DNA from: Siphonodentalium dalli
Lineage: Eukaryota; Mollusca; Scaphopoda; Gadilida; Siphonodentaliidae
Length of the DNA stretch: 64,000 nucleotides
Assembly: GCA_032622095.1 (NCBI GenBank)
Contig: CP136066.1
Coordinates: 132,897,917-132,961,916 of the forward strand
Reading direction: 5' to 3'
The notes beneath the pieces are model-generated. The model did no database searches. It was not told where the DNA came from and saw only the letters and a list, made by a program, of their open reading frames with translations. The position numbers were made by a program, and so were the translations under genes. Positions 10,001 through 48,276 of this stretch are shown here, piece after piece (position 1 is the stretch's first letter; every line of letters begins with the position of its first letter).

Positions 10001-13000
10001 AAAACAATAACTTTCCAAACAGCACTTATGACAAATCACAAGTGAAGATAACTCACCGGGCGATGACAATTCACGATGTGTACACAATGTTATTGACATA
10101 TAGTCATGCCCCGCAGTAATTCATTACACTCACGCGCTGATATCGAACCCGCATTTTCCATCGCCACTCAAATGACGTCATATAGGTAGACATAATTAAC
10201 TCCGACTCCGATTCCGTGTTTTTAATTAGTTTACTCATTTGACGTCATATGAGGATTTGCGACGGAGATAGCCGACAACCGGTGGGGGTATTATTTATTT
10301 ATTTCTTGGCTTATTTATTACGCGATTGTTGTGGGACTTGGATCATTGTGATCATAATATGGGTGGCTTTCCGATAGTGTTTTATTGTTTCATCCGGACA
10401 GAAATCCTTTAAGTCAAATTTTCAAGGCAATTGTTCAAATTGTGACTAAAGCATGAAACTTTGCACATATGTACATATTCACATACACATTGATATTAGA
10501 TATGGAGCCATGCTGAAATTTCACTTTAACCCTCCTTTAGGGGTTTTCTGAATTTAAAGAGCATTTCGTGATTATATAATTTATAAATGTCGCAATTAAT
10601 CTTACCATGAAATATGCGATTTAATATTCGGTATATACAGTAAGTATGATTCTGAGAGATATAATGCTACATTTTTAGGGTAAATTTGGAACTCCCCGTC
10701 CAAGATGGCCGTCAAAATGGCACCTGAAAGAGGAAATTTGATGTTTTTTCACTAAAATATTCTCGATCAGGTTCTGCTGTATGGAACTGGTTTGGAAATG
10801 TGACTTTATTTTGTAATGCTCATGTTAAGTGATCATTGGAGCAATGAAATATGCCATTCTTGTGATCCAAGTCCCTTCCGACACCTCAATAATTTTATTA
10901 TACAGAACTCGGTATGAAATTTCAACAAAATTCACTGTTAGGATTCTAGTCATATTTTAACAAGAAATTGACAGAACTGTGCAAATTAAGTGAGGCATAC
11001 AATTACTTATGAATATTTGAACTCAATGGAACAAAAATTGTCACTTGGTCTGAAAATGGCTGCCAAAACCTGGAAAATGGTAAATATTGCCCCAGCATGC
11101 CATGTAATCGCTTACAAGTTGTGATCACAGGAGCTTGGAATTTGGTCAAAACCCCTCTTTTATTGGCGGAACCACCACCCGGGGCCATAGGCCACAGAAG
11201 GAACGAAACAACAAATTGTTGCCACCCATTTTGAACTCAACTGTATTCCTACAAAAAATATATTTTCACTTAAAACTTTTGGTACCTCTTACATCTTAGA
11301 TGCCAATAGGTATATTTTTCCAGTTCTTCGAAAACCTCACTTTATTTCGGTAATGTATTGTAAATTCACCAACGAAGACAAATCCGCGACATCTTCATCA
11401 CCCATTCTAGAATCTGAGTAGCGGAACTGGTACCGAAATATGCGGAAACTTTAAAACTATGATCCGGAGACGGATAGCATGAAAGTACCGTTTATAATTT
11501 CGAACATAGCTGCTGATTACATGTTTATTACATGACCGTACCGACTATGATTATGATTATTTTATTCATAACTCATTCATATGATATATACAATTATATA
11601 CACAGTGTAATAGTATAACATTCAATGAGCTATCGGGGACAGCATAACCAAGAAGGTTGTCTACCTGCCGTCCCCGTTGAAAAGTAATATAACTATACAT
11701 GTAATAATAATTTTAATTTATCTAGGTTTTGTCTTGTTAACTTTAAACATTGGTATATAAAAGTCTGTTTTTTTAATAAATAATAGTATAATTCGTTTGG
11801 CGTTCACCGTTCATCGCTCAGTTTGTGATATGGTATGTAAAGTACAAGCATGTGGAATATGGATATGTGGATGAGGCCAGCGGAGAACCATGATAATTGT
11901 TTAACCAATGGGTCGGATAAGGCATTCGAATAATACATTCATGTATTTCCTGGATAGGGTGATGATGCACATGTATTATCTATCCTTCTCTCTTGTTATA
12001 CAATGTCAGTTATCGCTATGCGAATACTATATACTTATTAACATCGTTGCAGTCAGGACAATTGAATTTAAAAATTGAATTTCCAATTCATGAGCACAGG
12101 CTATATAATCATATGCATAAAGCCATTCTTTGAGACGTATACTATTTATAGATCCTGGTACCGGTACAGTTGACAATACTTATAGTTGCTTATTACATAA
12201 AATTTATGTTAGCGAGTTTATCACAAACACAAATTTATAAACTAGTTATTCGGTAAACCAGTTTGCATTACAACTTGCAAACGCACACATAAAACGTATA
12301 CTGTAAAGAATACGCAGGTTAATTTTGTGCTCTTACATTAAAGAATCTTATTACATTTTGTTACTGTATTTGGCATATTAATGGCGAGTTTTTGTACCCT
12401 ACATTGACAATTTTGAATTTCGCGAAACTAAACACTCGTTCTATATATGCATGGCCAATATCATTACCTAACTCAAGAAAAATGTCTTCTCTCATCAACT
12501 AAGACATATATTTGTTCGTCAGAACTAGTAAAAAACAGCATTTTATGTGGAAATAATTCAGATATTCTGGCAACGAATCTGCACCAAAACGCACAAAGGA
12601 ATCGCTTCATGCATAGGCATATATACCAGGCCTCCCGTGAGTCTATATATCTTTTTCTTCTCCTATGGGAGAGAGAGAGAGAGAGAGAGAGGGGGAGCTA
12701 GAGAGTTTTGGTCCCCTTATGACCAATCATTGCAACCAGTAGCATTACAAAGTCAAGTAGTACATATAGGCCTACCGGTACATAACGAACATAAAACAAG
12801 AAGAAAAAAACAATACCACGTGGTCGTGCCATAAATAGAAATAAATTATATATGAAATATTTGTACAAATTACCATTCAGTCAAATGAAGAATATCTTCT
12901 TGGGTAGTCGTGAGATGATAACAGCAGACACAGAAAAATACAGAAATTTTCAGGAAAATGCACAAAACATCAGGATTAGATCTTCAAAAACGAGCATAGT

Positions 13001-16000: not shown

Positions 16001-19000
16001 TACTTAAACTTTATTCAATAAACTACAAAATAAAACATAAATTGCAATAGATAAACATGCTATATTAAGAAATAAATATATGTATAGATAAACCAGGAAA
16101 CACGCGGTTTTTGAAAATGTAGATTTCAACTCTGAGCTATAATTAATTGTGATAAATAACTTATATAAATAACAATATAAAAAAAATAAAAAATTAATTG
16201 TGATAAGTTGATTTAATAAAACTGTGATGGTAACAATAAACCACTGTACTGTACTTTTAGCGAATTAGTGTTTAGTTTGGACAATTGTTGTAAAAACAAA
16301 GAGTCCATTCCAGCACAATAGCTGATGTAAAAACAACGTGTCAGTGCTCTAATTACATGTACCTGTGAAGTCACCATTGTTCAATCAGTTTGTGATACAA
16401 GCAAACGTATCTAGCTGTATCTGCATGTATCTGAAGGTGGTGCAGTGCAGTAACCAATTCTGGTTTAGGCGCATCTAATTAGATACCTGTTGTTATACCC
16501 CCACTTTCGAAGAAAATGGGGGGGGGGGTATACTGGATTGACTGCGTCTGTCCGTCAATCTTTCTCCCTCTGTGTGTCCTTCCGTCCGTCTGTCCATCCG
16601 TCTGTCCGTCTGACCTCATAACTCGAACAACTATGAACCAATTTCAATAATTTTTTGTATGCAATTTCCTTAGGACTGCCTCTCCACATGTACATGATGC
16701 TAATTGCGGTTCGGTCCGACCTTTTTTTTTTAAAGTTACACCTCATTTTTGACTTAGAAAATTTCACGCTTTTTCGGTCTCCGGATGATATCTCAAGTTC
16801 GGATCCTTTAATTGCAAATACCGTTTTTTTGTAGATCAGTCATATCAAGATACAATTTGAGTTTGATCCGATGATTTTTAGCTCAACTTACTTTTGTAAG
16901 TTTGAGCTATTGCCATGGCTTGGCGTCCGTGTGTGCGTGTGTTTGTGTGTGCGTGTGTCCGTGTGTCCGTCAACAATTTCCTTTGGCGCGGGCTACAGGT
17001 CGTACCTTTGGTCCGATCTTTATGAAATTTGTCATGAATGTTGACATTGACATGTAGATGGGAACGAGTCATTTTGGGGTCATTCGGCCAAAAAACATGG
17101 CCGCTGGTGGCCATTTTGGATTTCAAAATTCAATCCATTGGCGCGGGCTACAGGTCGTACTGTTCGTCTGATCATTATGAAATTTGTCATGGATGTTAAT
17201 ATTGACATGTAGATGGGAACGAGTCATTTTGGGGTCGTTCAGCCAAAAAACATGGCAGCTGGCAGCCATCTTCGATTTTACTCTTTGCATGACTAAATCC
17301 TTTGGCGCAGGCTACAGGTCGTAGTTTTGATCAGAACTTCATGAAATTTGTCATGGATGTTAACAATGACATGTAGATGGGAACGAGTGATTTTGGGGTT
17401 GTTCGGCCAAAAAACATGGCCGCCAGCAGCCATCATGGATTTTACTCTTTGCATGACTAAATCCTTTGGCGCGGGCTACAGGTCGTACCTATGGTCTGAT
17501 CTTTATGAATTTTGTCATGAATGTTGACATTGACATGGAGATGGGAACGAGTCATTGTGGGGTCATTCTGCCAAAAAACATGGCCGCTGGTGGCCATTTT
17601 GGATTTCAAAATTCAATCCATTGGCGCGGGCTACAGGTCGTGCTGTTCGTCTGATCATTATGAAATTTGTCATGGATGTTAATATTGACATTTAGATGGG
17701 AACGAGTGATTTTGGGGTCGTTCAGCCAAAAAACATGGCTGCCAGCAGCCATCTTGGATTTTACTCTTTGCATGACTAAATTCTTTGGCGCGGGCTACAG
17801 GTTGTAGCTTTGGTCAGAACTTCATGAAATTTGTCATGGATGTTAACAATGACATGTAGATGGGAACGAGTGATTTTGGGGTCATTCGGCCAAAAAACAT
17901 GGCCGCCAGCAACCATCTTGGATTTTACTCTTTGCATGACTAAATCCTTTGGCACGGGTTACAGGTCGTACCTTTGGTCTGACCTTTATGAAATTTGTCA
18001 TGAATATTGATATTGACATGTATATGGGAACGAGTCATTTTGGGGTTGACATGTATATGGGAACGAGTCATTTTGGGGTCATACGGCCAAAAAACATGGC
18101 CGCTGGTGGCCATTTTGGATTTCAAAATTCAATCCATTGGCGCGGGCTACAGGTCGTGCTGTTCGTCTGATCATCATGAAATTTGTCATGGATGTTAACA
18201 ATGACATGTAGATGGGAACGAGTGATTTTGAGGTCGTTCAGCCAAAAAACATGGCCGCCAGCAGCCATCTTGGATTTTACTCTTTGCATGACTAAATTCT
18301 TTGGCGCGGGCTACAGGTTGTAGCTTTGGTCAGAACTTCATGAAATTTGTCATGGATGTTAACAATGACATGTAGATGGGAACGAGTGATTTTGGGGTTG
18401 TTCGGCCAAAAAACATGGCCGCCAGCAGCCATCTTGGATTTTACTCTTTCAATGACTAAATCCTTTGGCGCGGGTTACAGGTCGTACCTTTGGTCTGACC
18501 TTTATGAAATTTGTCATGAATATTGATATTGACATGTATATGGGAACGAGTCATTTTGGGGTCATTCGGCCAAAAAACATGGCCGCTGGCAGCCATCTTG
18601 GATTTCAAAATTCAATCCATTGGCACGCGCTACAGGTCGTACTGTTCGTCTGATCATCATGATATTTATCATGGATGTTAATATTAACATGTAGATGGGA
18701 ACGAGTCATTTTGGGGTCCGCCAGCAGCCATATTGGATTTTACTCTTTGCATGAATAAATCCTTTGGTGTGGGCTACAGATCGTAGCTTTGGTTGGAACT
18801 TCAAGAAATTTGTCATGTATGTTATCAATGACATGTAGATGTGAAACGAGTCATTTTGGGGTCGTTCAGCCGAAAAACATGGCCATCTTGGATTTTACTC
18901 TTTGCATGACTAAATCCATTGGCACAGGCTACAGGTCATATCTTTGATCAGATCATTATGAGATTTGTAAAGGCTGTAGATGGGAACAAGTCATTTTGGG

Positions 19001-22000
19001 GTAATTCGGAAAAAAAACATGGCTGCCGTTGGCCATTTTAGAATTTACGCTTTGCATCAATAAATCCATTGGCACACCATAATCACCACATCCCTGATCC
19101 GATCATTATGAAACCTGTTATAAATGTTGATATTGACATGTACATCTAGTCTTACTTAGACATTTCAATTAGCACTTTTCCTATTCCTCCATTTACTGTC
19201 GACCATTAAATTATTCCCCTACCTAAGTTGAGCTACAGTGTCATTGACACTTTCATTTCTAGAGTATTGGAAAATTCAATTTTCTTCTTCTTTTTTTTTG
19301 GTTTTCAGATGATAACTAAAGTTTGGACTGTTGGACTGTTCAATTAAAAATTCCGTTTTTTGTGTGAGTCAATGATATCAAATGATACAGGTCAAGTTCG
19401 ATTTTTGAGTTTGATCCGATGATTTTTCTCAGAGTTATGGGCTTTTTGACTTAGAAAATTCAATTTTTCTTGTTTTTTCTTTGGTTTCCAGATGATAACT
19501 CAAGTTTGGATTGTTTAATTGGAAATTCTGTTTTTTTTTGTGGGTCGTTCATATCAAAATACAGGTCAAGTTCGAATTTGAGTTTGATCCAATGATTTTT
19601 CCCAAAGTTATGGGCCTTTCGACTTTGAATTTTTTTTTATATAATTTTCTGTTTTTCTGTATGAGGGTACCTTCATAGTTTAATCAACTCCTCCTACAGT
19701 TTTGATCGTAGATATTTGAAACTTCCTTTTTAGCTCACCTGAGACGAAGTCTCCAGTGGAGCTATAGTCATCACTCCTCGTCCGTCGTCCGTCCGTCCAT
19801 CCGTCCGTCCATCCGTCCGTCCGTCAACAATTCTTTGAACATCTTCTCCTCTGAAACCGGAAGACCGAATTGGTTCATATTTGGTGTGGATGTTCCCTAG
19901 GTGACTCTCATTCAGATTTGTTCAAATGAGGTCACTGGGTCAAATAGTTGCGAAGCCAGGGCCATAACTCTATTCCTCCATAGTAATTCTTACAACGACT
20001 TCTTTTTCAGAACCATTGGGCCGATTTAGCTAATATTTGGTACTGAGGGTCCTTGGGTGACTGGTGTTCAGATTTGTTCAAATGAGGTCACCCGGTCAAT
20101 TAGTTGAGAAACCAGGGCCATAACTCATAGTAATTCTTACAATGACTTCTTCTAAAACCATATTTGGCCGATTTAGCTTATATTTGGTAAAGAGAGACCT
20201 TGGGTGACTGGGGTTCAGATTTGGTAAAATGGGGTCACTGGGTCAAATTTGGGCAGAGCCAGGGACATAACTCTAAAAAAATAATAACATTTTTGCATTT
20301 TGACCTTTGATTTTTTTTAGACATATCACAGCTACCCAACCCCACCCTCCCCCACCCCACCTCCTGTCCCTGCCACACCACACTGTATCATACCATGTTA
20401 TCTCTTCCTTGTTCACCCCATTAAAATCCTTGTTTTGATCACAGCTGTAGGAGTATCAAAAAGCTGTGTGTGCAGTCGTTAAAACCTAATAATCTATGTC
20501 AACACCTCTCAGACACTGGTAGCTGATGGTTTCATGAATGGAATATAATTCTCAGAAAGCACTTGCTCTCAAGGTCATGGGAATTTTGTTAAGCTAATGT
20601 AGTCAAATAAATGTTGTATGTCATATTCTCACAGGGATGTCCCGACAGTGTTGGGGGGGGGGGGGGGTGACTGACAGATTTGTTCAATGAAATGTAAATT
20701 TGAAGCTCTTATGAGAAGAAGCTATAGTCATCACTTCTCATCTGTCACCTGTTCATCTGTCTGTCCGTCCATCCATCTGTCAACAATTCTTTGAACATCT
20801 TTTCTAGGTCATAAGACTGAATGGGTTCATATTTGGTGTGGATGTTCCCTAGGTGACTCACATTCAGATTTGTTCACATGAGGTCACTGTCAAATGGTTG
20901 TGAAGCCAGGGCCATAACTCTTGCCCTCCATAGTAATTCTTAAAAACGACTTCTCGTGTACCATCAGGTTGAATTTGTTCATATTTGGTATGAAGGGTCC
21001 TTTGGTGACTGTAGTTCAGATTTGTTCAAATGGGGTCATCCTGGTCAAATAGGGGCCAAGCAAAGGACAGTTTTCCTCTTAATATGCTTCATTTACACGG
21101 ACCGTCAGGTTTATTTTACTGGTATTTAGTATGAAGGGTTCTTTGGTGTCTGGGATTCAAATTTATGCAGATGGGGTCACCAGGTTAAATAGGGTGGGAC
21201 CAGGGACATAACTGTATGTCTCTATAGTAATACTTATAATGTCTTCTCAAGAGAGGTTGGACCATATAGTATGGAGGATCCTTTAGTGACTGAGATTCAG
21301 ATCTGTTAACATGAGGTCAACCCATTAAGAAATGACGGGACTATGGGGACTAAATACTTTTGTGTCTAAAAAATCATTAAAATACAAAATTCATTCAAAC
21401 GTCTACCTTGGAACTACCTGACTGATTAATCTGACATACATATAGTGTTTTTGGGTCCATGGATAATTGGGCTTTAAACATGTCTAAATGGTTTTATATA
21501 AAGCGCTATTGAGATTGAAAATTTCCAACAATTGAGAAAGTTTGATATGTCGGTTGTGAAATTTCAACCTAAGACTTGGGAGTCTGGGCCCCGGGCGAGA
21601 GGGGACTTCTTGAGCTGGAGGAGGGGGTGATCACTAGTGTACAGTTGGTAATTTCAAGTTAGATTTTGTAATTTCAAGGTAGATTTTGTAGATTTGGTAT
21701 TTTGATATTCACTGATCTACATTCATGAATCCTCTCTAGCCACATATCCTGTTTAGAACTACTTCTTTTAAAGTGATTATGAAAAGTTCTGACTGTTGTG
21801 GTCTCCAAAGTCCCAGTCTTATCAGTCTTTGCAGTCTGGTGAGCGACCCCACAGTCTTTGACTGTCTTGTTTTTGGATGCTATCACACTCGACAAAAGCC
21901 ATCTTAGATGTTAAGGTTGCGTTTCATTTTCTACCCTTTTTTGGGTTTCTGCAATCATTCGAACAAATATGAACCAATATCAAAATTATTAATCCAAATT

Positions 22001-25000
22001 TTTCTTCAAAGTTAAAAATCTTTTTTGTTGGGTTTACAGATAATGCGGGTTGAATTTGCCACGGTGGGGGTATGCTAGCACTCGAGTGCACACCTCTTGT
22101 TTTAATCCATTTCAAAGCTTTGCCGATACAAAAGACCGCTAATTAAATTGGTACGCTTATTCAATAGTACGAAAGTACATTACCTGCTTGCACGCGCGTT
22201 TGTCTGGTATCGCTTTCGGAATTTATTTAGTTCAAGATTAAATATAAATACAGCAGTATCTTTTTATTCTCAGGCATTATATTCGTTTTAGTTTGTAAAT
22301 AAATTTGATTAATGTACCAAGAACACTTCGTCCGTTTGTAACTAACTGTTGTCACTGACAGTGATCAAGGTCACACACATGTCAACTCAAAAGCGGAAAT
22401 GTTCACATCATTACCTTTTAACTGATTGCGTTCGGTCTCTTCCATCGCTTTAAGCGTTCGGATTTTGGAGGTAAACATTAGTGTATTTGTTCACTTTTGG
22501 ACTAATAAAGCTGTCCGGTATTTGGAGTACAGAGGTTTCGGATTACAGAGGTAATAATTAGTGACAATGCACTTGGGTAAATTCGGGACCAAACAACTCG
22601 TTCGGAATGGAGAGGGGTTCATATTGTAGAGGGTCCGGTTTGGAGAGGTTTCACTGTACTGGGACAACAAGAATAGAACATATAGTTGTCAGTTGATTAA
22701 GTGACATGTTTAATAAGCAAATGAATCACAATGTGCAACCTTCACAGAAGAACAGAGAATAATGTCTGGGATATATTGAAAAATATAAACTTTTCTACCA
22801 AATTTTGTAGACATTTTGCAAGCCAGCTTGAGTATAATTTTCTAAAAACACATCAGTGTGATGCATTTAAGACGGATCAAAACAATAAATAAAAAAGATA
22901 GTTCCATTTTACTTGAAAAAAAATGGTGCAAACCTGATTACCGATTTTGAGAGAAAATTCCATAAATTTGGTAATGTAATGGTAACACTTATACAAGATG
23001 CATCATAAATGTTAGTACTCAATGTATATATGGTAAAACAGCCAATTTTATTCATCATCCACAACTTTTAAGCGATTGCATGGCACGACTGGACAATATT
23101 TTCCATATTTTGGCCGCCATTTTTTAAAAACCAAAGTGACAATTTTGGTTCCATTGAGTTGAAATATTCATAAGTAATGGTATGCTTCACTTACTTTGCA
23201 CAGTTCTGCTCATTTCTTGTTGAAATATGACTAGAATCTCAATGGTGATTTTTGGTGAAATTTTATACCGCGTTCTGTAAAATCAAATTATTGGGGGATC
23301 GGATGGGGCTGGGATCTCAAGAATTGCATATTTCATTGCTCCAGTGACCAGTTAACATGAACAATATAAAATAATGTCACATTTCCGAACCAGTTCCATA
23401 CAGAAGAAACTGGTCTAGAGGATATTAGTGAAAAAATGTAAATGCCATTTTGATGGTCATCTTGAACGGGGAGTTTCAATTTTGCCCGAAAAATGTGCCA
23501 TTATATCGCGCTGAGTCATACTTGCTGTATATCCGTAATTGTCCCCCGAAAAATTAATTTTTGGGGGACTATTGTAATCGGCCCCATCCGTTCGTCCGTC
23601 CGTCCAGTCCGTCCGTCCATGCGTCCGGAGTTATAACTCCAGTAATGATCATCCGATTTGATTGAAACTTGGTATGTAGGTGTCTCAACCAAGAACACAG
23701 GTGCTCTGTAATTCTGGGTATGATCCGATGTTCTTTTATGGAGTTATTTTCCTTTTTTCAACTTTTTACTTAGAAAATTTCTCACTTTTTCGGTTTCTGG
23801 ATGATATCTCAAGTTTGGATCCTTTAATTGCAAATACGGTTTTTATGTGGATCAGTCATATCAAAATACAGGTCAGGTTCGAATTTGAGTCTGATCCGAT
23901 GATTTTTCTCAGAGTTATGGGCTTTTCGACTTAGTAAATTCAATTTTTCTTCCTTTTTCTTTAGTTTCCGGATGATAACTCAAGTTTGGACTGTTCAATT
24001 GAAAATTCTGTTTTTAGCTCACCTGAGACGAAGTCTCCGGTGGAGCTATAGTCATCACTCCTCGTCCGTCGTCCGTCTGTCCGTCCGTCCGTCCGTCTGT
24101 CCGTCCGTCAACTTTTTTAAAAACATCTTCTCCTCTGAAACCATCATACCGAATTGGTTCATATTTGGTGTGGATGTTCCCTAGGTGACTCTCATTCAGA
24201 TTTGTTCAAATGAGGTCACTGGGTCAAATAGTTGCGAAACCAGGGCCATAACTCTATTCCTCCATAGTAATTCTTTTAACAACTTCTTTTCCATAACCAT
24301 TGTGCCGATTTAGCTAATATTTGGTATGGAGGGTCCTTGGGTGGCTGGTGTTCAGATTTGTTCAAATGAGGTCACCCGGTCAGTTAGTTGAGAAACCAGG
24401 GCCATAACTCAGTAATTCTTACAATGACTTCTTCAAAAAAAATATTGGGCCGATTTAGCTTATATTTGGTACTGAGGAACCTTGGGTGACTGGGAATCAG
24501 ATTTGTTCAAATTGGGTCACTGGCTCAAATAGGGGCAGAGCCAGGGACATAACTCTAAAAACCAAAAAATTACATTTTTGCATTTTGATCATATTTGGTG
24601 TGGATGTTCCCTAGGTGACTGTCATTCAGATTTGTTCAAATGAGGTCACTGTGTCAAACAGTTGCGAAACCAGGGCCATAACTACATTCCTCCTTGGTAA
24701 TTCTTATATCGACATCTTGTCAAGAACCATTATGCCGATTTAGTTTATATTTGGTATGTGGGGTCATTGAATGACTGGGGTTCAGATTTGTTCAAATGGG
24801 GTCACTGTGTCAAATAGGGATGGAGCCAGGGCCATAATTCCCAAAAAAATAATAATAAATTTAGGAACTCCTTGATCAATTTAACATACAAACAAAATTA
24901 TCACCCCCCCCCCCCCCCACATGACCCAGAACCCCACACTGCCCCCAACCAACAGCATTCCACCCTATCTCATTTCCTAACTCACAGGATCTCCCCCACC

Positions 25001-28000
25001 AGCACATTAAGTCAATTGTATTAGCTACAGACCCAGAGAGAGAGAGTTAATATAAATACACACACAGACATCAATTGTGATTTTTATCAGGCTGACAGGT
25101 GTGAACTTAATGCTTAGACAGCACTCATGCCAATGTGGGTTATTAAAATAAAATAAAAACAAATTATTGTTCTCTAACCTGAATTTAGTGTGTCTGGCAT
25201 TTGCAGAAAGAGGTTCCCAGAGGGTGAATTTAGTTATGCTATCCTGCACAGCAGTCTAGCATCACCAAATACACTAGCCAGGGTCCTCATTCTGCTTAAC
25301 CTCATCTTCTGGGAAGTATATAGGCACTTAAATTGACACTTTTACTTACTTTTTCCCTTCTGTTTATAGTTTCTATATCCCCTAATTTGTGAATATAAAA
25401 TGCATAATTGAGGTGCCCAGTGGGTGCACATCACCAACTTTAACTGGAGAACATCAATCTAATGCTATGTCTCCCATAGCAGTTGAGGCCTACACAGAAT
25501 GAGGTCCCCAGAGGGTGAATTTGGTGATGCTAGCCCACATTGCAGGATTGTGTCATTAAATTTACCCTTTGGGGACCTCATTGTGCAAATGTCAGACACT
25601 ATGTTCAGGCTTGGCTGTTCGAATATTTATATGTTCTTAACCACCAGTATCCAATTGAACTCATTATACCCTGATTTTGCAAAGAAAACTTGGGGGGTAT
25701 ATTGGATTGAATTTGTCAGTCTCTATGTCAGACTGTTTTCCCATCCATCCATCTGTCATTATGTCTCTATCCGTCCATCAATTGTTTTCTTCTCCAGATA
25801 CATATTAAAGACCAAATGGGTTTATATATTTAGGTGTGGATGTAAATCCTTGTTTTGATCACAGCTGTAGGAGTAACACAATACATTGGTATCACTGGGC
25901 AAAATGTTTGTGCCATCATTAATTATCTTCATGTCAACAGGTCTCCCAGACTTTCTGGTAGCTGATAGTGGCTTTATGAATGGACTTTTATCCCATGTTT
26001 ATCTCAGATACAAATTACCTGTTTGACAGATAAAGTTTATTTTTACTATTAATATTAACCATTTCATGACCAGAGTTGTGCTGGTGAGAGCAATGAAGAC
26101 ACTGTGCTTCTGCATTCTCTCATATATGCTCCCATGGGAAGCCTCCCATATAAAAGAGAATGCACTGGCTTTCAAGGTCATGGTAATTTTGTTAAGGCAA
26201 TAGGCATCCAAATAAATCATGTATGTCATATTCTTGCAGGGATGTCGCCACTGTGTTGGGGGGGGGGGGGGGGGGGGGGTGATTTACAGATTTGTTCAAT
26301 GAAATGTAATTTTTGAGCTCACATCTTCTCTAGACTGAATGGGTTCATATTTGGTGTAGATATTCCCTAGGTGACTTACATTCATCATTCATATTTGTTT
26401 AAATGAGGTCACTCTATCAAATGGTTATGAAGGCAGGGCCATAACTCTTGCTCTCCATAGTACTTCTTAAAAACTACCTCTTCTGCTGTACCATCAGGTT
26501 GAACGGGTTCATATTTGGTATGAACAGTCCTTGGGTGACCCGGAGTTCAGATTTTTTTTCAAATGGTGTTATTGGTTTTAAATGGGGTCAACTAGGGGTC
26601 AAGCAAAGGAAAGTTTTCCTCTTAATATGCTTCCTTCACACAGATCATCAGGTCTATTTTACTGATATTTAGTATGAAGGGTTCTTTGGTGTCTGGGATT
26701 CAAATTTATTCAGATGGGGTCACCAGATTAAATAGACTGGGACCAGGGACATAACTGTATGTCTCTATAGTAATACTTAAAAATGTCTTCTCAAGAGAGG
26801 TTGGACTATTTAGCTTACATATAGTATGGAGGATCCTTTAGTGACTGAGATTCAGATTTGTTAACATGAGGTCAACCTGTTAAGAAATGACGGGGCTATG
26901 GGGACTTCACTTAAAACATCTACCTTGGAACTACCTGACTGATTAATCTGACATATATATGTTGTTTTCGGGTTCATGGATAATTGGGCTTCAAACATGT
27001 CTAAATAGTTTATAAAAAGGTGCTTGTGAGAATGGAAATTTCGAACAATTGAGAAAGTTTGAGACGTCAGTTGTGAAATTCCAACCTAAGACTTGGGAAT
27101 CTGGAGCCCGGTCAGGAGGGGATATGTTGAGCTGGAGGGGGGATCTGTAGTGTTCCATTGGTAATTAAAAGGTAGATATTCGCTGATCTCTGTTTAGATC
27201 CGCTTCTTATAAAGTGATTATGAAAAGTTCTGACTGTTATGGTCTCAAGAGTCCCAGTCTTATCAGTCTTTGCAGTCTGGTGAGCGACCCCACAGTCTTT
27301 GACTGTCTTGTTTTGTGGGTCGTTCATATCAAAATACAGGTCAAGTTCGAATTTGAGTTTGATCCAATGATTTTTCCCAGAGTTATTTTTTATAATTTTC
27401 TGTATGAGGGTACCTTCATGGTGTAATGAACTCCTCCTACAGTTTTGATCGTAGATATTTGAAACTTCAGAGTATTGTTACCCACATATTGGAGATGTGC
27501 AACATGTATATAGATGAGGGAAATTTTTTTTTTTTACGGAATTATTAACCCTTTCGACTAAGAACATTTCAACATTTTTTTAAATTTCTTTAACAAAGCG
27601 GCATCGACTTACCACGTTGTCGGGGGACACTGTGGTCGGCCGACCTTTTATTTTAAATTGCAGATTCCATGGTAAGATTAATTGTGACATTTATTAAATA
27701 ATATAATCACGAAACACTCTTTAATTTTGGAAAACCCCTTAAAAAAGGGGTTAAAGTGACATTTCAGCATGGCTCCATATCTAATATCAATTGGTATGTG
27801 AATATGTACATATGTGCAAAATGTCATGCTTTAGTCATGAATTGAACTATTCTTTTACTAATATACTCCACTAAGATGGTATCAGGAGTGCGGGTGCTCC
27901 AATGGGATGGCTGACGTGCCTGGTATCATCCAGTTGTCATCCTGAAGGGCATCTTCCACTCGTTGGGTTCCGAAATCCAGTCTGGAACCACTTCTGGTCG

Positions 28001-46600: not shown

Positions 46601-48276
46601 TTGGAACAGGCCACATCCCTCATCCGATCATCACCAAACTTCATATGGATCTTCGGGTGACCTCTAGATGGGAGCTTTCCATTTTTTCCTCATTTTTAGC
46701 TCAACTTTACTTTATAAAGTTTGAGCTATTGCCATGGCTTAGTATCCGTCGTCTGTGTGTGCCTGTGTGCTTGTGCGAGCCATCAACTATACAGGCTACA
46801 GGTCTTACCTTTGGTCGGATCACTATGAAATTTGTCATAGCTGTTGACATTGACATGTAGATGGGAATGAGTCATTTTGGGGTCATTTGGAAAAAAAACA
46901 TTGCCGCCAGTGGCCATCTTGGATTTCAAAATTCAATCCATTAGCACGGGCTACAGGTCGTACTTGTCAGGGATGTTAATATTGACATGTAGATGGTAAC
47001 AAGTAATTTTGGGGTCAATCGGCCAAAAAACATGGCCACCAGCAGCCATCTTGGAATTTACTCTTTGCATGACTAAATCCTTTGCCATGGGCTACAGGTC
47101 GTACCTTTGGTCGGATCATCATGAAATTTGTCTTAAAATGTTAATATTGACATGTAGATGGGAACGACTCATTTTGGGGTCATTCGGCCATAAAACATGG
47201 CCACCAGCAGCCCTCTTGGATTTTACTCTTTGCATAACTAAATCCTTTGGCACACCCTACAGTCCACTTCCCTCATCCGATCATCACCAAACTTCATATT
47301 AATCTTGATATTGATCTACTAGATGCAAGCTATCAAATGATTTTGAATTTCATTGGAAAACATAGCCATCAGCAACCATCTTGGATTTTACTTTATATAA
47401 ATATATCTCTTCATGTTGATAATCTAGTATTACTTAGACCTTTCAACATTCTGCATTCTTATCGCTCCATTGACTGTAACATATGAAATTATTCCCTTTC
47501 CAAGTTGAGATCCAGTGTCATTGACACTTTCATTTTTTTTAAATATGGCCGTGACGGCCATCTTGGATATCACATTTGAATCCATCATCACAACATGCAG
47601 CCCACAATTATTGCGAAATGTTTTGAAAATGTTTAAGTTTTAATCCATTGGCACATCCTACAGCTTGAATCAGAAAAATATTTTTAAACTTTTCAGGATC
47701 TCTAGATGGGAGCTATCAAATTTTAAACTTGGCCATCGGCAACCATGTTGGATTTTATACTTTGCATGACTAAATCCTTTGTCACACCCTACAGACCACA
47801 TCCTTCATACTATTCACCAAACTTCATCGTCTGGGTGAATCTAATGAAGAATTCCTTCGGCACACTCTGCATGAAACAATTCTTCGGGGTGACCTCTAGA
47901 TGTGAATTATCCAATTTTTCCAAAATTCATTAAAAATATGGCCGCCAGCAACCAATCTTCGATTTCATATGTGAATCCATCGGCACACCCTTCGGCCCAC
48001 ATTTATTGTGAAATGAAAATAATGTACACAATATAAGCCCTTTACTGAAACTTTTTTGACTTTCCTTCTTCTTTATCCTTCTATTCATTGCTCAGCAATG
48101 TACGATTATCTTCTTATATTATTTTGTTTATATTTTCTCTGTTCAGGTTTGGACCAGGACTCGTTATATACTGGTTTGGGTTCATTGATGACCTCGACAT
48201 TCACCAAGATAAAGGCATCATGCTGTTTGATGACTTCCCAGAGAATGTTGTCCAAATGAACCCACTGATGAGGTGA
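957..48276 (+). CDS. CDIN1: CDIN1 (C15orf41) orthologue, C-terminal 8 exons; 5' part outside window
   Basis: Join of 957-1014, 4920-4998, 6928-7007, 31320-31369, 38548-38615, 39186-39251, 42542-42647 and 48147-48276: 637 bp, giving 211 residues after one leading partial-codon base. CDIN1 is a PD-(D/E)XK superfamily nuclease that binds codanin-1; human mutations cause congenital dyserythropoietic anaemia type I. Seen here: TPD at in-window residues 124-126 and the E-x-K of IESKAS at 144-146, the core nuclease signature, followed by the conserved [18 protein letters not shown] block. I recall human CDIN1 as about 281 residues, so roughly 70 N-terminal residues are missing upstream. The C-terminus ends at the same place as the human protein. 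All introns are GT-AG with matching phases. Recognition rests on remembered similarity across every exon; orthology is highly likely. Confidence 0.93.
1015..1681. other. Intron sequence, nothing recognised
   Basis: First part of the intron between in-window exons 1 and 2. No conserved ORF, RNA or repeat recognised. Confidence 0.5.
1682..2207 (+). mobile_element. Non-autonomous canonical Helitron
   Basis: The 5' end is TCTCGTATATAT after an A. The 3' end is a hairpin (AGCCCG 2178-2183 with CGGGCT 2192-2197), then seven bases, then CTAG at 2204-2207 followed by T. That is the textbook Helitron terminus, with insertion between A and T. Inside are a GTAT/GTTT microsatellite (1708-1756) and three 122-bp tandem units with high CpG. 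No Rep/helicase is present. Confidence 0.85.
1881..2175 (+). repeat. 122-bp tandem units inside the Helitron
   Basis: Units begin GACGAGATCTCGG at 1881, 2003 and 2125, so the period is 122 bp; the last unit is partial, and a partial unit precedes the first. The GC-rich units create overlapping open frames on both strands; none resembles a protein. Confidence 0.9.
2753..4425. mobile_element. Possible hAT-like element with short GGCGGATC(T/C)A ends
   Basis: GGGCGGATCTA near 2755 and TGGATCCGCC near 4412-4421 are inverted termini, of a kind I associate with hAT elements. Internally a ~50-bp stretch (GCACCCGAAG...CACTGAATAT) occurs twice, near 2851 and 3125. No clean target duplication was found. 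The reading frames in it are not recognisable proteins. Confidence 0.4.
4426..4919. other. Intron sequence, nothing recognised
   Basis: Intron immediately upstream of in-window exon 2. Only ordinary AT-rich sequence is seen. Confidence 0.4.
4920..4998 (+). CDS. CDIN1: CDIN1 in-window exon 2
   Basis: The acceptor TCTTTTCAG ends at 4919; the donor GTAAGAT starts at 4999. It encodes [20 protein letters not shown] and then KYDGEN, with the last base C completing a proline codon in the next exon. IDFAP..MAR(M/L)I(I/L)ER is a strong family block. Confidence 0.93.
5540..6210 (+). repeat. Degenerate family A core repeats
   Basis: About four diverged units contain AACATGGC-type, CAGCAGCCATCTTGGATTTT-type and TTTGCATGACTAAAT strings, spaced roughly 160 bp. 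They sit in the intron between in-window exons 2 and 3. The 5' hairpin and 3' hairpin of family A are missing. Confidence 0.65.
6491..6745 (+). mobile_element. Family C 5' end, truncated
   Basis: It begins TTATACCCCCC, pairs with GGGGGGGGTATACTGG to form the 5' hairpin, then has GTCCGTCCGTCGTCC minisatellite and a core like that of 51560-52120. No 3' terminus is seen before exon 3. Confidence 0.7.
6928..7007 (+). CDS. CDIN1: CDIN1 in-window exon 3
   Basis: The acceptor TTTTTCAG ends at 6927 and the donor GTGAGT starts at 7008. It encodes (P)[19 protein letters not shown] and then LAIEVQE. It ends on a codon boundary and is followed by a 24.3 kb intron full of nested repeats. Confidence 0.9.
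7008..7870. other. Intron, start of the 24 kb nested-repeat intron
   Basis: No assignable feature. On the plus strand, ATG at 7694 opens a 22-codon acidic frame ([15 protein letters not shown]...) after a short CpG-bearing stretch. It could be a first exon of a decayed transposon gene, but nothing downstream supports it. Confidence 0.3.
8150..9266 (+). mobile_element. hAT-type transposon copy, 1.1 kb, internally deleted
   Basis: Ends are GGGTCCTGCGAAT on the left and ATTCGCAGGAC on the right, with subterminal TTCGATTCGA-rich blocks (8164-8245 and 9180-9245). An exact 8-bp duplication TCTTTATT flanks it (8142-8149 and 9267-9274), as expected for hAT. It contains a BED zinc-finger remnant but no transposase core. 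Confidence 0.85.
8650..8872 (+). pseudogene. BED zinc-finger remnant of hAT transposase
   Basis: The frame ending at the TAA of 8870-8872 reads [20 protein letters not shown] followed by NYLSKKHP. The spacing of the final H and KHP and the K-S-x-T/S tract resemble a BED finger (C-x2-C...H-x4-H). The second cysteine is not in place, and an upstream [12 protein letters not shown] piece is in another frame, so it is frameshifted. It lies inside the hAT copy, which supports its origin. Confidence 0.55.
9431..9916 (-). pseudogene. THAP zinc-finger domain ORF, frameshifted
   Basis: On the minus strand one frame gives [19 protein letters not shown] and [13 protein letters not shown]. Around 9700-9720 the reading shifts to a frame giving [20 protein letters not shown]. 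Together these match a THAP C2CH finger: first C, the FP..(D)..LR..W stretch, then C-x2-H. The second cysteine of the first pair appears as tyrosine (CSVFGY) and a frameshift is required, so it is probably dead. THAP domains occur in host regulators and in transposases; the repeat context suggests a transposon source. Confidence 0.65.
9920..10429. other. Intron sequence, nothing recognised
   Basis: AT-rich; two copies of AATGACGTCATAT-like sequence near 10173 and 10240 hold CRE-like TGACGTCA cores. No gene or element ends seen. R-type sequence may begin slightly before 10430. Confidence 0.35.
11126..13471. mobile_element. Element E: 2.35 kb TIR transposon, ~300-bp inverted ends
   Basis: 11126-11416 is the near-identical reverse complement of 13165-13471; the ends are CACAGGAGCTTGG and CCAAGCTCCTGTG. 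A 7-bp duplication TTGTGAT flanks it (11119-11125, 13472-13478). R copy 2 provides the unoccupied site near 23053-23069. The interior has no credible protein, so it is non-autonomous. Superfamily unclear; a 7-8 bp duplication would allow P-like or hAT-like. Confidence 0.85.
12667..12691 (+). repeat. (GA)n microsatellite
   Basis: A GAGAGA run inside element E, bordered by GGGGGAGC. Confidence 0.9.
14105..15330. repeat. ~45-bp minisatellite with an inverted middle block
   Basis: Degenerate units around GACTGTATGGTCATGGGTGA and GGTATACAGGGAGT repeat in plus orientation at about 14105-14670 and 15041-15330. They read in minus orientation (CACTCCCTGTATAC, CACCATGGCCATA) at about 14690-15040. Open frames on both strands come from the repeat and have no protein similarity I recognise. 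Inversion breakpoints lie near 14680 and 15040. Confidence 0.75.
15331..15719. other. Intron sequence, nothing recognised
   Basis: Unique-looking DNA between the minisatellite and R copy 2. No feature supported. Confidence 0.4.
16880..19258 (+). mobile_element. Helentron/pearl-like element A1 with 165-bp core array
   Basis: The 5' hairpin (16880-16908) starts AGCTCAACTT. A GT-rich tract (16927-16975) is followed by the core array. The 3' end has AAGTTGAGCT, an exact inverse of the 5' arm, then hairpin AGTGTCATTGACACT (19237-19251), then TTCATTT. The host sequence GATGATTTTT resumes after it as CTAGAGTATTGG, matching the intact host version GATGATTTTTCTCAGAG near 19422. So insertion was in a T run without duplication. 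Confidence 0.85.
16976..19150 (+). repeat. ~165-bp core satellite with ~483-bp higher-order period
   Basis: About 13 units of 158-168 bp are marked by GGCGCGGGCTACAGGTCGTA and CAGCAGCCATCTTGGATTTT. Three unit types alternate, so near-identical segments recur at 17466, 17949 and 18465. A 33-bp block (starting at GACATGTATATGGGAACGAG) is duplicated in tandem at about 18015-18080. Units decay towards the 3' end. Short open frames here are products of the repeat. Confidence 0.85.
19259..19731 (+). repeat. C/D-type core repeats between A1 and B1
   Basis: Two to three diverged units contain CAGATGATAACTCAAGTTTG-type and GTTTGATCC-type strings, spaced ~165 bp. The same core is in D at 23760-24015. 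The string TTCTGTTTTTTTTTGTGGGT near 19527 is the unoccupied version of the B2 insertion site. Confidence 0.75.
19732..21872 (+). mobile_element. Helentron-like element B1, nested in C1
   Basis: The 5' hairpin starts AGCTCACCTGAGAC and pairs with GTCTCCAGTGGAGCT. GTCC minisatellite follows at 19780-19825. Core blocks of ~165-170 bp (GGGCCATAACTC, CAGATTTGTTCAAATG, GGTCACTGGGTCAAAT) lie at 19850-20280 and 20800-21350. The 3' end has GGTGAGC (inverse of the start), hairpin ACAGTCTTTGACTGT (21851-21865) and CTTGTTTTT. A 15-G run sits at 20653-20667. No coding region. Confidence 0.85.
24016..27314 (+). mobile_element. Helentron-like element B2, nested in D
   Basis: Same termini as B1: AGCTCACCTGAGACGAAGTC start, GTCC minisatellite at 24060-24110, GGTGAGC and hairpin ACAGTCTTTGACTGT (27292-27306), then CTTGTTTT. 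It differs by ~1 kb of extra DNA (about 24860-25840), which includes a C-like fragment (GGGGGGTATATTGGATTG near 25691). A 22-G run is at 26258-26279. The host core resumes as GTGGGTCGTTCATATC. Confidence 0.8.
25501..25580. repeat. Inverted repeat inside B2
   Basis: GAGGTCCCCAGAGGGTGAAT is mirrored by AAATTTACCCTTTGGGGACC about 40 bp later. Diverged copies of the same GGTTCCCAGAGGGTGAATTT are near 25211. This is the B2-specific part absent from B1. Confidence 0.7.
27851..29149. other. Unassigned DNA 3' of the recombinase/SGNH remnant
   Basis: Relatively GC-rich, with two similar ~30-bp motifs (GGCACTA...GAGAGCACT.TCTGA) at 28530 and 28933. It may be the downstream part of the minus-strand recombinase element, but no protein is recognisable and no element end was found. 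Confidence 0.3.
29150..29756 (-). pseudogene. SGNH/GDSL-hydrolase-like domain following the recombinase
   Basis: Minus-strand blocks in order: [17 protein letters not shown] (block I, G-x-S), [16 protein letters not shown] (block III, GxND), and [19 protein letters not shown] then GALETFL (block V, D-x-x-H). The blocks are in different frames with stops between them, so the gene is dead. In cnidarian and molluscan genomes I recall such SGNH domains directly after a tyrosine recombinase in one transposon ORF; this arrangement agrees. It is probably transposon-derived, not host. Confidence 0.65.
29757..29999 (-). pseudogene. Tyrosine recombinase C-terminal remnant
   Basis: On the minus strand one frame gives [18 protein letters not shown] then [13 protein letters not shown], the C-terminal hallmark of DIRS/Crypton-type tyrosine recombinases (HSFR-x-GAAT...GRW.SD..RRYI), including the candidate tyrosine nucleophile. 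Just upstream, the [13 protein letters not shown] piece is in another frame and the catalytic HSFR is degraded, so it is broken. The frame stops at a possible acceptor-like TTAG before the SGNH part. Confidence 0.65.
29965..30391 (+). mobile_element. Family B fragment B4, 3' part
   Basis: It has B core strings (CTGTGTCAAATAGGGGCAGA, GGTGACTGG, CAAATGGGGTCACC) and the 3' end: CAGTCTGGTGAGC, a diverged hairpin ACAATCATTGACTGT (30370-30384) and CTTGTTT. The sequence immediately after is the T1 repeat, so B4 sits inside a T1 copy. Confidence 0.75.
30392..30905 (+). mobile_element. T1 transposon, partial copy (right part)
   Basis: It matches 49603-50136 over about 490 bp, ending in the same terminus (CAGCATGCAACCAATCAGAA...GAGATATAATAT). 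The left half is missing, being replaced by B4 and the recombinase remnant. Confidence 0.7.
30906..31319. other. Intron end upstream of CDIN1 exon 4
   Basis: AT-rich intron with a clear polypyrimidine acceptor at its end; nothing else recognised. Confidence 0.5.
31320..31369 (+). CDS. CDIN1: CDIN1 in-window exon 4
   Basis: The acceptor TGCTTTCAG ends at 31319; the donor GTATCC starts at 31370. It encodes [16 protein letters not shown] plus two bases of a histidine codon. It matches the family block with YGP(I/L)VD. The exon is too short to show as an open reading frame. Confidence 0.92.
31370..32383. other. Intron sequence, nothing recognised
   Basis: AT-rich intron following exon 4. No ORF or repeat of note. 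Confidence 0.5.
32384..33430 (+). pseudogene. L1/Tx1-type non-LTR retrotransposon, C-terminal remnant
   Basis: Broken plus-strand frames read in order: [53 protein letters not shown], then [16 protein letters not shown], the typical C-x2-C zinc segment, and a region ending near DNGNTGKIC. This is the tail of an L1-like reverse transcriptase protein. There are several stops and frameshifts. A ~40-bp stretch (TTGCTATTCCTAAAACCCTG) is duplicated at the 5' edge (32384-32468). Confidence 0.75.
33431..33947. other. Intron sequence, nothing recognised
   Basis: AT-rich intron DNA between the L1 remnant and the next inverted repeat. Confidence 0.45.
33948..34094. repeat. Foldback inverted repeat, ~70-bp arms
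   Basis: AATATGTAGCTAGTGTCATC at the left is the mirror of GATGACACTAGCTACATATT at the right; pairing continues through TTTATGTCTG and into GGGATTTG/CAAATCACCC with a loop of under 15 bp. It looks like a foldback MITE; no target duplication was recognised. Confidence 0.85.
34598..34640 (+). repeat. Solo family A 3' end
   Basis: CCAAGTTGAGCTACAGTATC followed by ATTGAGACTTTCAT: the family A terminus with a mutated hairpin. No core repeats precede it. Confidence 0.7.
34686..34788 (+). repeat. 35-bp tandem repeat, target of transposon N1
   Basis: Units start GTCAGAATGTGTTTTTTGTA at 34686, 34721 and 34756. The third unit is cut by N1, and its end (GATCATCT) reappears at 37884 after the element. 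Confidence 0.85.
35192..37353. mobile_element. TIR transposon N2 (inner), same family nested in N1
   Basis: The ends TAGTCCAAGTCTTCTTGTAC and GTACAAGAAGACTTGGACTA are perfect inverted repeats continuing for ~68 bp. The exact 9-bp duplication ATATATTGC lies at 35183-35191 and 37354-37362. N2 is related to N1 at both ends and in subterminal DNA (e.g. TTCTATGTGTAATTTAACAT near 37103 and 37631). Perfect termini suggest it moved recently relative to N1. Confidence 0.9.
35546..36660 (+). repeat. 318-bp near-identical direct repeat inside N2
   Basis: 35546-35863 and 36343-36660 are offset by 797 bp and differ at very few positions (for example TTGGAAT against TTAGAAT). The 479-bp spacer contains two CGCTCTTTAT motifs. 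It could be a tandem duplication or a small retroelement with direct ends; no TG...CA ends are seen. Confidence 0.9.
37889..38547. other. Intron end upstream of CDIN1 exon 5
   Basis: Unremarkable AT-rich intron; a C-run is at 38403-38412. Confidence 0.45.
38548..38615 (+). CDS. CDIN1: CDIN1 in-window exon 5
   Basis: The acceptor CTTGCAG ends at 38547; the donor GTAACT starts at 38616. It encodes (H)[18 protein letters not shown] and then LSYI plus one base of a glycine codon. The IGHE(Y/H)E motif is family-typical. Confidence 0.92.
39186..39251 (+). CDS. CDIN1: CDIN1 in-window exon 6 (PD of the nuclease motif)
   Basis: The acceptor TTTAAG ends at 39185; the donor GTACCG starts at 39252. It encodes (G)[18 protein letters not shown] and then IPI, with one base shared with the next exon. 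GYDKTPD carries the aspartate of the PD-(D/E)XK core. The acceptor polypyrimidine tract is weak next to the others. Confidence 0.92.
39252..39620. other. Intron sequence, nothing recognised
   Basis: Intron after exon 6, ending in an (ATT)n microsatellite at about 39601-39621, next to the LINE insertion. Confidence 0.5.
39636..40364 (+). CDS. Non-LTR retrotransposon, C-terminal ORF fragment (242 aa)
   Basis: An intact frame reads [19 protein letters not shown] near the start, then a C-x2-C-x8-H-x4-C zinc motif (C174, C177, H186, C191) within CQLCGAI...[10 protein letters not shown]. This layout is the C-terminal tail after the reverse transcriptase domain of invertebrate LINEs. The methionine is not a native start: an in-frame stop lies just upstream next to an (ATT)n tract, so the copy is 5'-truncated. 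It sits in sense orientation in a CDIN1 intron. The lack of stops suggests a fairly young copy. Confidence 0.8.
   Translation: MHSTMVYMVYGELGRWPLRVEIDKRMTSFWSRLMTKKKSNHPFILYKLILAMKGGGKRIRYLDHIEDIFVRADCEDNWKTQLPVSNSKLQYMHKKLLGNFFLQWNNEVSQSSRGEFYRNLKKCPSLSRFYVECPFNSIISLQRIRTSNHRLGVETMKWAKSKNQKKGISGIGSCQLCGAIMCDEYHFVIVCPNLREYRMKYIDESIWKNPSRESFYGLLNSSDTMKLNKLSNFIKIGLKQFK
40563..40800 (+). repeat. (GTAT)n/(AT)n microsatellite in LINE 3' UTR
   Basis: About 240 bp of mixed TGTA, GTGT and ATAT steps. Long open frames of Y/I/C/V on both strands are artefacts of the repeat. Confidence 0.95.
41158..42541. other. Intron sequence, nothing recognised
   Basis: Ordinary AT-rich intron leading to the exon 7 acceptor. 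Confidence 0.45.
42542..42647 (+). CDS. CDIN1: CDIN1 in-window exon 7 (ExK of the nuclease motif)
   Basis: The acceptor CTGTTTTACAG ends at 42541; the donor GTATAT starts at 42648. It encodes [18 protein letters not shown] and then [16 protein letters not shown], with split codons at both ends. IESK supplies the catalytic E-x-K. It is the most conserved exon in the window. Confidence 0.95.
42648..44275. other. Intron sequence, nothing recognised
   Basis: First part of the intron between exons 7 and 8. No repeat or gene was identified. Confidence 0.45.
44276..44346. repeat. Inverted repeat, ~24-bp arms
   Basis: CAATGTGTTCATAAACCTAT and ATAGGTTTATGAACACATTG flank a ~22-bp loop. The pairing is perfect. 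A smaller hairpin, CTTCAGGTGT/ACACCTGAAG, lies at 44480-44504. Confidence 0.9.
44582..44673 (-). repeat. tRNA-derived SINE, tRNA-like part
   Basis: On the minus strand it starts GGGGTTGCTTCGGTGGCCGT and has a box B-like GGGTTCGTATCCC. It shares the GACTTTGAGTCGCAAGGCGC block with the copy at position 1. It is directly beside the 220-bp palindrome, which could form part of or have inserted beside the SINE body. Confidence 0.7.
44753..44972. repeat. Perfect 220-bp palindrome without spacer
   Basis: The centre is between 44862 and 44863 (CACCAGGC|GCCTGGTG). I paired both 110-bp arms and found no mismatch; pairing breaks at 44752/44973. As a result the same 71-codon frame reads on both strands; it is not a gene. 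The ends lie in TATATATGTATGTAGG-type sequence. Confidence 0.95.
44973..46297. other. Intron sequence with minor simple repeats
   Basis: 45170-45262 holds diverged ~20-bp units like GAAATATTTGAGATAAAA. Otherwise nothing is recognised. Confidence 0.45.
46298..46420 (+). repeat. 26-bp tandem repeat, five units
   Basis: The unit starts GTTAACTATAATTGATAATG. Starts are at 46298, 46324, 46343, 46369 and 46395; the second unit lacks seven bases. Units are otherwise essentially identical. Confidence 0.95.
46518..48010 (+). mobile_element. Older family A element (A'), split by A2
   Basis: 46518-46697 begins with the 5' hairpin (CTCAACTTGACAAAGTCAAG), a GT tract and a core of the variant TCCGATCATCACCAAACTTC type; 47536-48010 continues with the same core type (GCCATCTTGG, ATGACTAAATCC). 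No 3' hairpin is seen before exon 8. Confidence 0.65.
46698..47535 (+). mobile_element. Helentron/pearl-like element A2
   Basis: The 5' hairpin AGCTCAACTTTACTTTATAA...TTGAGCT follows a T run. About four 160-bp core units follow (GGCTACAGGTCGTACCTTTGG at 47089 and similar). The 3' end has AAGTTGAG and hairpin AGTGTCATTGACACT (47514-47528), then TTCATTTTTT. Confidence 0.8.
48147..48276 (+). CDS. CDIN1: CDIN1 last coding exon
   Basis: The acceptor TTCTCTGTTCAG ends at 48146. It encodes [36 protein letters not shown] and MNPLMR, and stops at TGA 48274-48276. The protein end lines up in length with the human C-terminus. The stop lies inside AGGTGA, which also begins a 20-bp tandem repeat and resembles a 5' splice site; length agreement favours a true stop. 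Confidence 0.93.

Follow-up and report, generated by a model that had tools for sequence, protein, structure and literature searches.

The closest described systems are HINEs, non-coding rolling-circle-type transposons that depend on Helentrons. In the sections of PMC7492417 cited here, Cg_HINE elements of the oyster Crassostrea gigas have a 5' subterminal inverted repeat (subTIR) followed by its own inverted copy and a 3' subTIR followed by a palindrome. They carry a microsatellite, often of the GTCC type, and central repeats of 140-180 bp. They insert at TT without a target-site duplication (TSD) and are non-autonomous with no autonomous partner identified; the same sections report ten autonomous oyster elements that could not be related to Cg_HINEs. 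HINE/DINE-1 elements of mite, mosquito and fly, as given in the structural descriptions of PMC4067079, have a palindromic 5' subTIR or inverted repeat, a 3' subTIR followed by a palindrome, a T-rich target with a variable number of flanking Ts and, in some copies, tandem repeats. Short arrays of ~160-bp repeats between modular ends are likewise described, in the parts of PMC7492417, PMC11136912 and PMC5139131 used here, for pearl CvA, CvE and CvG of Crassostrea virginica, DTC84 of Donax and MgE of Mytilus, which are known to us by description. A 64,000-nt stretch of the scaphopod Siphonodentalium dalli (contig CP136066.1, positions 132,897,917 to 132,961,916, forward strand; the window, whose own positions are used below) contains four repeat families, A, B, C and D, that share these features. 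They closely match Cg_HINE in plan, the likeness being one of architecture.

With high confidence A, B, C and D are classed as four HINE families. They are of a HINE-like kind already known, and an internal array shared by C and D is an extra result. Read with copies elsewhere in the genome, the ~11 kb region that holds them is two nests of elements. The elements and their related sites in the window are as follows.

16495..22101, + strand: HINE-like C element split by A and B1, of the long form that has the D-type array; 5' hairpin 16495-16531; GTCC-rich tract ~16546-16613; inverted arm 22066-22073; 3' hairpin 22078-22089; tail ACACCTCTTGTT; TT before the same 5' end in 15 of 15 other fetched C copies.
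16880..19257, + strand: A element, inside C; 5' hairpin 16880-16908; GT-rich tract; ~164-bp core repeats 16979-18968; inverted arm 19225-19234; 3' hairpin 19237-19251; tail TTCATT; empty site in other C and D copies.
19732..21871, + strand: B1 element, inside C; 5' hairpin 19732-19763; GTCC tract 19779-19825; ~147-bp repeats; inverted arm 21838-21844; 3' hairpin 21851-21865; tail CTTGTT; empty site in four C copies (L017, L018, L067, L073).
23541..27652, + strand: D element, interrupted by B2; 5' hairpin 23541-23569; GTCC tract 23587-23627; tandem array; inverted arm 27622-27628; 3' hairpin 27634-27645; tail TTTTATT; empty site in the window at 10530-10722 (- strand).
24016..27312, + strand: B2 element, inside D; 5' hairpin 24016-24047; inverted arm 27279-27285; 3' hairpin 27292-27306; tail CTTGTT; empty site in many D and C arrays.
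10530..10722, - strand: empty-site paralogue for the D insertion, a copy of the host repeat that lacks D, 83% over 198 bp spanning the junction.
46698..47535, + strand: second A copy.
56154..56761, + strand: second C copy, short form without D-type array.

A sequence-only reading had reported four families in this region. All four are present, nested and not side by side: 16495-22101 is a C element split by A and B1, and 23541-27652 is a D element split by B2. Genome copies of the nested families are closer to the window copy (94-99% identical in B, 92-96% in A) than those of the host families (87-93% in D, 84-90% in C). These ranges are from the best 40 matches per 5' end of 1,203-2,510 candidates per family, with the window copy itself excluded, and describe the closest copies. 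By these identities nested A and B look younger than their hosts, so the nesting order fits relative age. Nested insertions together with empty sites make target choice and element ends directly readable.

The arm and hairpin strings of the sequence-only reading were all located in place, with first arms at 16880 (A), 19732 and 24016 (B), 16495 (C) and 23541 (D) and inverted arms at 19225, 21838 and 27279, 22066, and 27622, respectively. Each of the four families opens at its 5' end with a hairpin, and an inverted copy of the first arm of this hairpin lies just ahead of a perfect 3' hairpin, separated from it by 2-6 nt (2 nt in A, 6 nt in B, 4 nt in C and 5 nt in D). A structure-only detector, blind to sequence, was run for this design. 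It needed a 9-nt arm forming a self-hairpin with at most one mismatch, an exact inverse no more than 14 nt before a stem of at least 6, and then Ts. On 16301-28000 it returned A, C and D exactly on the + strand and nothing on the - strand. Dinucleotide shuffles of the region (N = 100) gave a mean of 0.1 matches and a maximum of 2. The proposal of one architecture in four families is upheld by this recovery of three of them, a number reached by 0/100 shuffles. B was undetected because its two ends agree over only 7 nt, below the 9-nt rule. Six other 11.7-kb pieces of the window gave 0-2 matches per strand, and the piece with two contains the second C copy.

Folded as single-stranded DNA, the 5' hairpins were stronger than their shuffles (z of -5.8 for A, -2.8 for B, -2.3 for C and -4.0 for D). 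Folding energy of the 3' hairpins was not significant against shuffles (z of -1.4, -1.7, -0.05 and +0.3, respectively) and was rejected as evidence, so the evidence for the 3' hairpins is their conservation across copies. No covariation of the 5' and 3' arms within a family was counted by eye in the fetched C and D copies, where the arms are almost invariant. The core repeats had been put at ~165-185 bp, which holds only in part: the period is ~164 bp in A, array spacing in C and D is ~145-170 bp, and B lies outside the range at ~147 bp.

The same ends were found in copies across the genome. TT precedes the 5' hairpin in 17/17 D and 15/15 C fetched copies (32/32) and also in five A and five B copies. 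The copy-search queries began 5-6 bases upstream of the hairpin, TT included, which may have slightly favoured copies with TT. The 5' flanks vary from one C or D copy to the next except in three flank-sharing pairs (L060/L061, L058/L066 and L069/L072). Both ends were recovered in 13/17 D and 10/15 C copies. Among these the 3' hairpin is followed by TTTTAT in 12/13 D copies and by ACACCTCTT in 10/10 C copies, with divergence beyond. Window A terminates in TTTCATT and window B in GTCTTGTT. Conserved ends away from the hairpins, which the sequence-only reading had named as a sign against its proposal, were not seen in the fetched copies.

B was counted genome-wide. Its 32-nt 5' hairpin has 4,192 exact copies and its 34-nt 3' end, with two free positions, has 3,083, and the reversed-pattern control was 0 for both. 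A same-strand 3' end lay 0.2-8 kb downstream (median 2,958 bp) of 45 of the first 100 listed B 5' ends, compared to 3, 0 and 0 in three controls, and a B 5' end lay upstream of 44 of the 68 listed B 3' ends in the covered stretch. Pairing far above controls shows that the two ends belong together well outside the window.

Further elements were met among the fetched sequences. Two are stubs with a 5' end only: a T-flanked B stub of 36 bp (L030:3798-3833) and an A stub of ~24 bp in the C element of L071. The latter sits in a T run after GAAACTTCC, the same run that B1 occupies in the window. The stubs would fit 5'-first transfer; two cases are an anecdote, and deletion after insertion is equally consistent with them. 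A fifth HINE-like family, E, is inserted in a B copy at L042 ~2955-3488 (ATACGCC ... GGGCGTAT ... CTCTTG), and at least 17 B copies lack E, their two sides abutting with an overlap of at most 5 bp. Four abundant HINE-like families, or five with E, are added in a 2.2-Gb genome. A ~590-bp element at L032:237-827 has more than 30 copies at 98-100% identity among the matches listed and is apparently very recent.

A, B1, B2 and D each have an empty site, and all of these are T-rich. For C, the fifth insertion of the window, none was found in the DNA examined. The D site is an 83% paralogue within the window and is less exact than the A and B sites. Filled sites have T runs of 5+3 (A), 5+5 (B1) and 5+4 (B2), and the matching empty copies mostly have 6, 8 and 7 T. 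Length of the empty run varies, being 5-6 in most copies of the A site, 7-8 in four copies of the B1 site and 4-10 in six copies of the B2 site. The inserts went into T runs, adding about two T and no exact number; a constant gain of two T per insertion was dropped since the empty runs vary in length.

The test for longer TSDs used 10 D and 8 C copies, each having both ends and differing from the rest in the last eight bases of the flank. Duplicates L061, L066 and L072 were omitted, as were L058 and L073, which are like another copy in those eight bases only. Shared 4-, 5- and 6-mers occurred between the flanks of 8, 7 and 4 of the 10 D copies (7.3, 6.2 and 2.9 in shuffled pairs) and of 2, 1 and 1 of the 8 C copies (2.3, 1.8 and 0.7). 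There was no excess of shared 4-6 mers over shuffled pairs. TSDs had been the other sign named against the proposal, and no excess of longer ones appeared in the fetched copies.

Seven window copies, with C and D taken minus their inserts, contained no ATG open reading frame (ORF) longer than 119 aa. A 3.6-kb B copy in L042 had no open frame above 101 aa. Proteins of X and Y, two Helentron-type families of this genome described below, gave no tblastn match in the window, in L001-L026 or in the long L042 B copy. Four features of HINEs were observed: a 5' subTIR that is palindromic or followed by its inverse; a copy of the inverted repeat and then a palindrome near the 3' end; insertion at TT or T-rich sites without a TSD, from which duplication of a few Ts would be indistinguishable; and no transposase gene, with a microsatellite and tandem repeats inside, which are frequent in HINEs and not obligatory. 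The Helentron/HINE-type design put forward by the sequence-only reading is supported by the ends at hairpins in the fetched copies, the TT or T-run insertion, the empty sites, the absence of excess longer TSDs, the lack of coding capacity and the microsatellite with central repeats.

The genome is rich in Rep genes. Searching with PF14214 gave 457 candidates, of which 150 were scored with 151 matches, and searching with the X Rep protein gave 218 candidates, of which 137 were scored with 142 matches. One class has long ORFs of up to ~2,860 aa. Three of its genes (Y, X and C8:4.87M) combine an OTU protease domain, DUF6570 and Rep, and C2:166.37M and C3:12.6M have DUF6570 and a sub-threshold OTU in the portion read. 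In X and Y a PIF1 domain follows Rep, both above the Pfam cut-off, and a weak C-terminal Exo_endo_phos match comes after it. The relevant sections of PMC4067079 define Helentrons by a C-terminal apurinic/apyrimidinic (AP) endonuclease and note OTU proteases in them. A second, strong-Rep class has matches of ~160-216 bits and ORFs of up to 1,697 aa.

The Y family has 11 copies with an identical Rep score and 14 within 0.4 bit. Copies are 97-100% identical to each other across 6 kb downstream; being near-identical, the family has moved recently. Most Y ORFs are ~2,700 aa (L029, L047, L030, L041 and L042; C1:214403600-214438400 and relatives). Homology among Y copies spans more than 20 kb, a stretch in which several HINEs are nested, and the elements are possibly very large. 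A tandem array with a unit of ~1,734 bp at ~99% identity adjoins Y at L041:3829-9900, with a match also at C1:214455257-214462894. The same genome holds recent, open Helentron-type genes, and the autonomous element that mobilizes HINEs could be settled here through their ends.

Several points weigh against the HINE classification. The search for an autonomous partner covered the flanks, whole or partial, of 12 Rep loci: the X loci C2:5.30M and C8:164.6M and the X relative C8:4.87M; Y at C1:214.4M and partly at C1:169.5M, C5:132.1M and C3:70.9M; C2:166.37M, C3:12.6M, C3:145.0M and C1:61.5M; and C3:17.6M of the strong-Rep class. Three intervals between neighbouring strong-Rep genes (L033-L035) were also searched. 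In the sequence fetched from these loci and intervals no Rep ORF stands between matching A, B, C or D ends, and no autonomous element with such ends was found, unlike the HINE/DINE-1 elements of PMC4067079, with which, in the sections cited, autonomous Helentrons share ends. The Exo_endo_phos match is below Pfam's curated cut-off (E 0.0017 and 18.6 bits versus 24.5 for Y; E 0.0095 for X). X has the Rep motif ARGAKHWH, differing at Rep motif 2 from the Helentrons of the same sections of PMC4067079 with the signature RGSPHxH, and no RGSPHxH-type motif was matched in Y with the patterns used. X and Y may be a distinct branch, and because of these two motif results they are labelled Helentron-type rather than settled Helentrons. 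No 3' end was recovered at the score threshold in 4/17 D and 5/15 C copies, and few full A and B copies were read. Duplications of T alone are possible, and T-run length varies among empty copies. Rolling-circle transfer itself would leave nothing visible in sequence.

Homology among X and among Y copies, which contain HINEs, continues upstream of Rep for over 9 kb and beyond the end of the ORF for over 4 kb, past the fetched flanks, so their own ends lie outside the fetched sequence. A-D ends and fragments are common in the Rep flanks. Examples are B in both L028 and L030, the 3' end of a B in L027, 3' ends of A in L029, L042, L049 and L053, one resembling the 3' end of D in L032, and a fragment of C that three Y copies (L041, L043 and L044) have at an identical position. 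These look like HINE insertions. When the Rep loci were scanned for arm-hairpin pairs of any sequence, most counts resembled those of swapped-locus controls. C3:145.0M and Y exceeded controls at the loosest settings, with 9 and 20 raw links; these were read as noise, the arms being AT-rich and not at TT with a T-rich tail.

The sequence-only reading had further suggested several lineages on the same Helentron machinery. No A-D pair surrounds a Rep ORF in the fetched flanks; this part of the proposal was not shown, and one shared machinery for A-D is unproven. The chances are about even that several Helentron families exist instead, each recognizing its own pair of ends. End sequences differ by family, and at least two Helentron-type protein families are present (X and Y Reps are 59% identical) together with more diverged ones. 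Nothing direct speaks for a single machinery; the tail CTTGTT is common to B, C and the fifth family and the first six bases are common to A and B, hinting at overlapping recognition between families.

The HINE classification leaves the internal arrays to be considered. The sequence-only reading held the families to be of different sequence, which is correct for the ends and incorrect for the interiors of C and D. Ends of C and D are unrelated, yet the interior of long C copies matches D over 616 aligned bases at 88% (C_L018 versus D_L006), largely monomer by monomer. In short C copies the C ends are unchanged and enclose another interior. Twelve C copies with both ends were scored, ten fetched and two in the window, and copies without a recovered 3' end (5/15 C, 4/17 D) were left out. 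The D-type array was present in five, namely the interrupted window C copy and 4/10 fetched C copies, and absent in seven. C_L067, one of the five, is a deleted form. In two of the five long copies (C_win1 and L073) the left switch point is at a shared ACTTAGAAAATT; the left junction of L018, L071 and L067 differs from the ACTTAGAAAATT site. On the right side long C copies depart from D homology at GAAACTTC. To the right of GAAACTTC come ~90 bp of other sequence and then a part common with short C.

An unrooted tree was built from 33 monomers (22 D and 11 C), with near-duplicate D copies L061 and L066 and monomers below 110 bp removed. Its deepest groups follow array position rather than family. 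Within positions the family label was clustered (5 changes versus 9.5 in shuffles), and at positions 1 (93/91) and 2 (97/94) the C monomers group into clades that lie among those of D. A constraint uniting all C monomers was rejected by the approximately unbiased (AU) test (p 5e-45); since the positions are old paralogues, this shows merely that the whole array is shared. C nesting at single positions suggests that D would be the source. On balance the HINE central array is probably an exchangeable cassette, a whole D-type array having moved, monomers in order, into C elements with unrelated ends. An alternative with no move from D, in which the array is ancestral to C and D and short C copies had theirs replaced, is unlikely. 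The lack of a root would allow it, and tree support is limited, with 15/30 inner branches below 80, only 5 strong and the third position poorly resolved; the C clades among D monomers at positions 1 and 2 and the other interior between the same ends in 7/12 C copies argue against it.

If the cassette reading is true, families with different ends spread the same satellite-like repeats, and array and end sequences evolve separately. In the Cg_HINE sections of PMC7492417 a repeat cluster keeps to one flank pair, whereas here one array lies within both C and D ends, so the C/D sharing is an exception to that pattern. It bears on the movement of satellite-like repeats between mobile elements, a question discussed for oysters. 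No report of array exchange between such families was found in the titles and abstract starts of the open-access literature searched.

Two other classes of element were weighed for A-D. Miniature inverted-repeat transposable elements (MITEs), cut-and-paste elements with terminal inverted repeats, are very improbable. Inverted arms at both ends and high copy number are MITE-like, and the similarly designed bivalve elements pearl and DTC84 were, according to the descriptions available, first named MITEs. The 3' inverted arm of A-D, however, is not terminal but precedes a separate hairpin and tail, and the two ends are dissimilar. Terminal inverted repeats with flanking TSDs were not observed: there is no TSD excess, and filled and empty sites differ, the insert aside, in T number alone. 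Non-autonomous canonical Helitrons (5'-TC ... CTRR-3', inserted between A and T) are scarcely credible even with the strong-Rep genes present and unassigned in class, as A-D start with AGCTC, ATACC or GTCCC after TT and finish with TTCATT, CTTGTT or TTTTATT, so that there is no TC start, no CTRR end and no insertion between A and T but into TT or T runs.

Taken as HINEs, A-D copies each have a short module at either end, with a microsatellite and arrayed ~145-170 bp repeats between them. A Helentron-type Rep would nick at TT before the 5' hairpin, and a helicase would peel off one strand, which carries that hairpin. The 3' hairpin may be the termination signal, as in Helitron biochemistry; in the sections of PMC4778049 on Helraiser the 3' hairpin is thought to have this role, its deletion raising read-through while circles still form. 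Two partners would be available to the 5' arm: its neighbour, which gives the hairpin, and the inverted arm that precedes the 3' hairpin. Pairing with the latter might hold both ends together for the second cut and joining. The internal array would be passive cargo; the D-type array in long C copies suggests that arrays are exchangeable between families.

Other parts of the window contain a diverged B-like 3' end (59137-59151), a C-like 5' hairpin (6493-6526) and a C-like 3' end (52232-52260), which suggests further related families there. Strong Rep genes elsewhere in the genome lie on one strand ~8-26 kb apart in a tandem-array-like manner (C1:114.63M, C6:36.91-36.93M, C2:137.06M, C1:179.79-179.82M and C9:50.09-50.14M). 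Window positions 1682-2219, with a 122-bp tandem repeat, match sequence between strong-Rep genes (L033 and L034) at ~87-94%.

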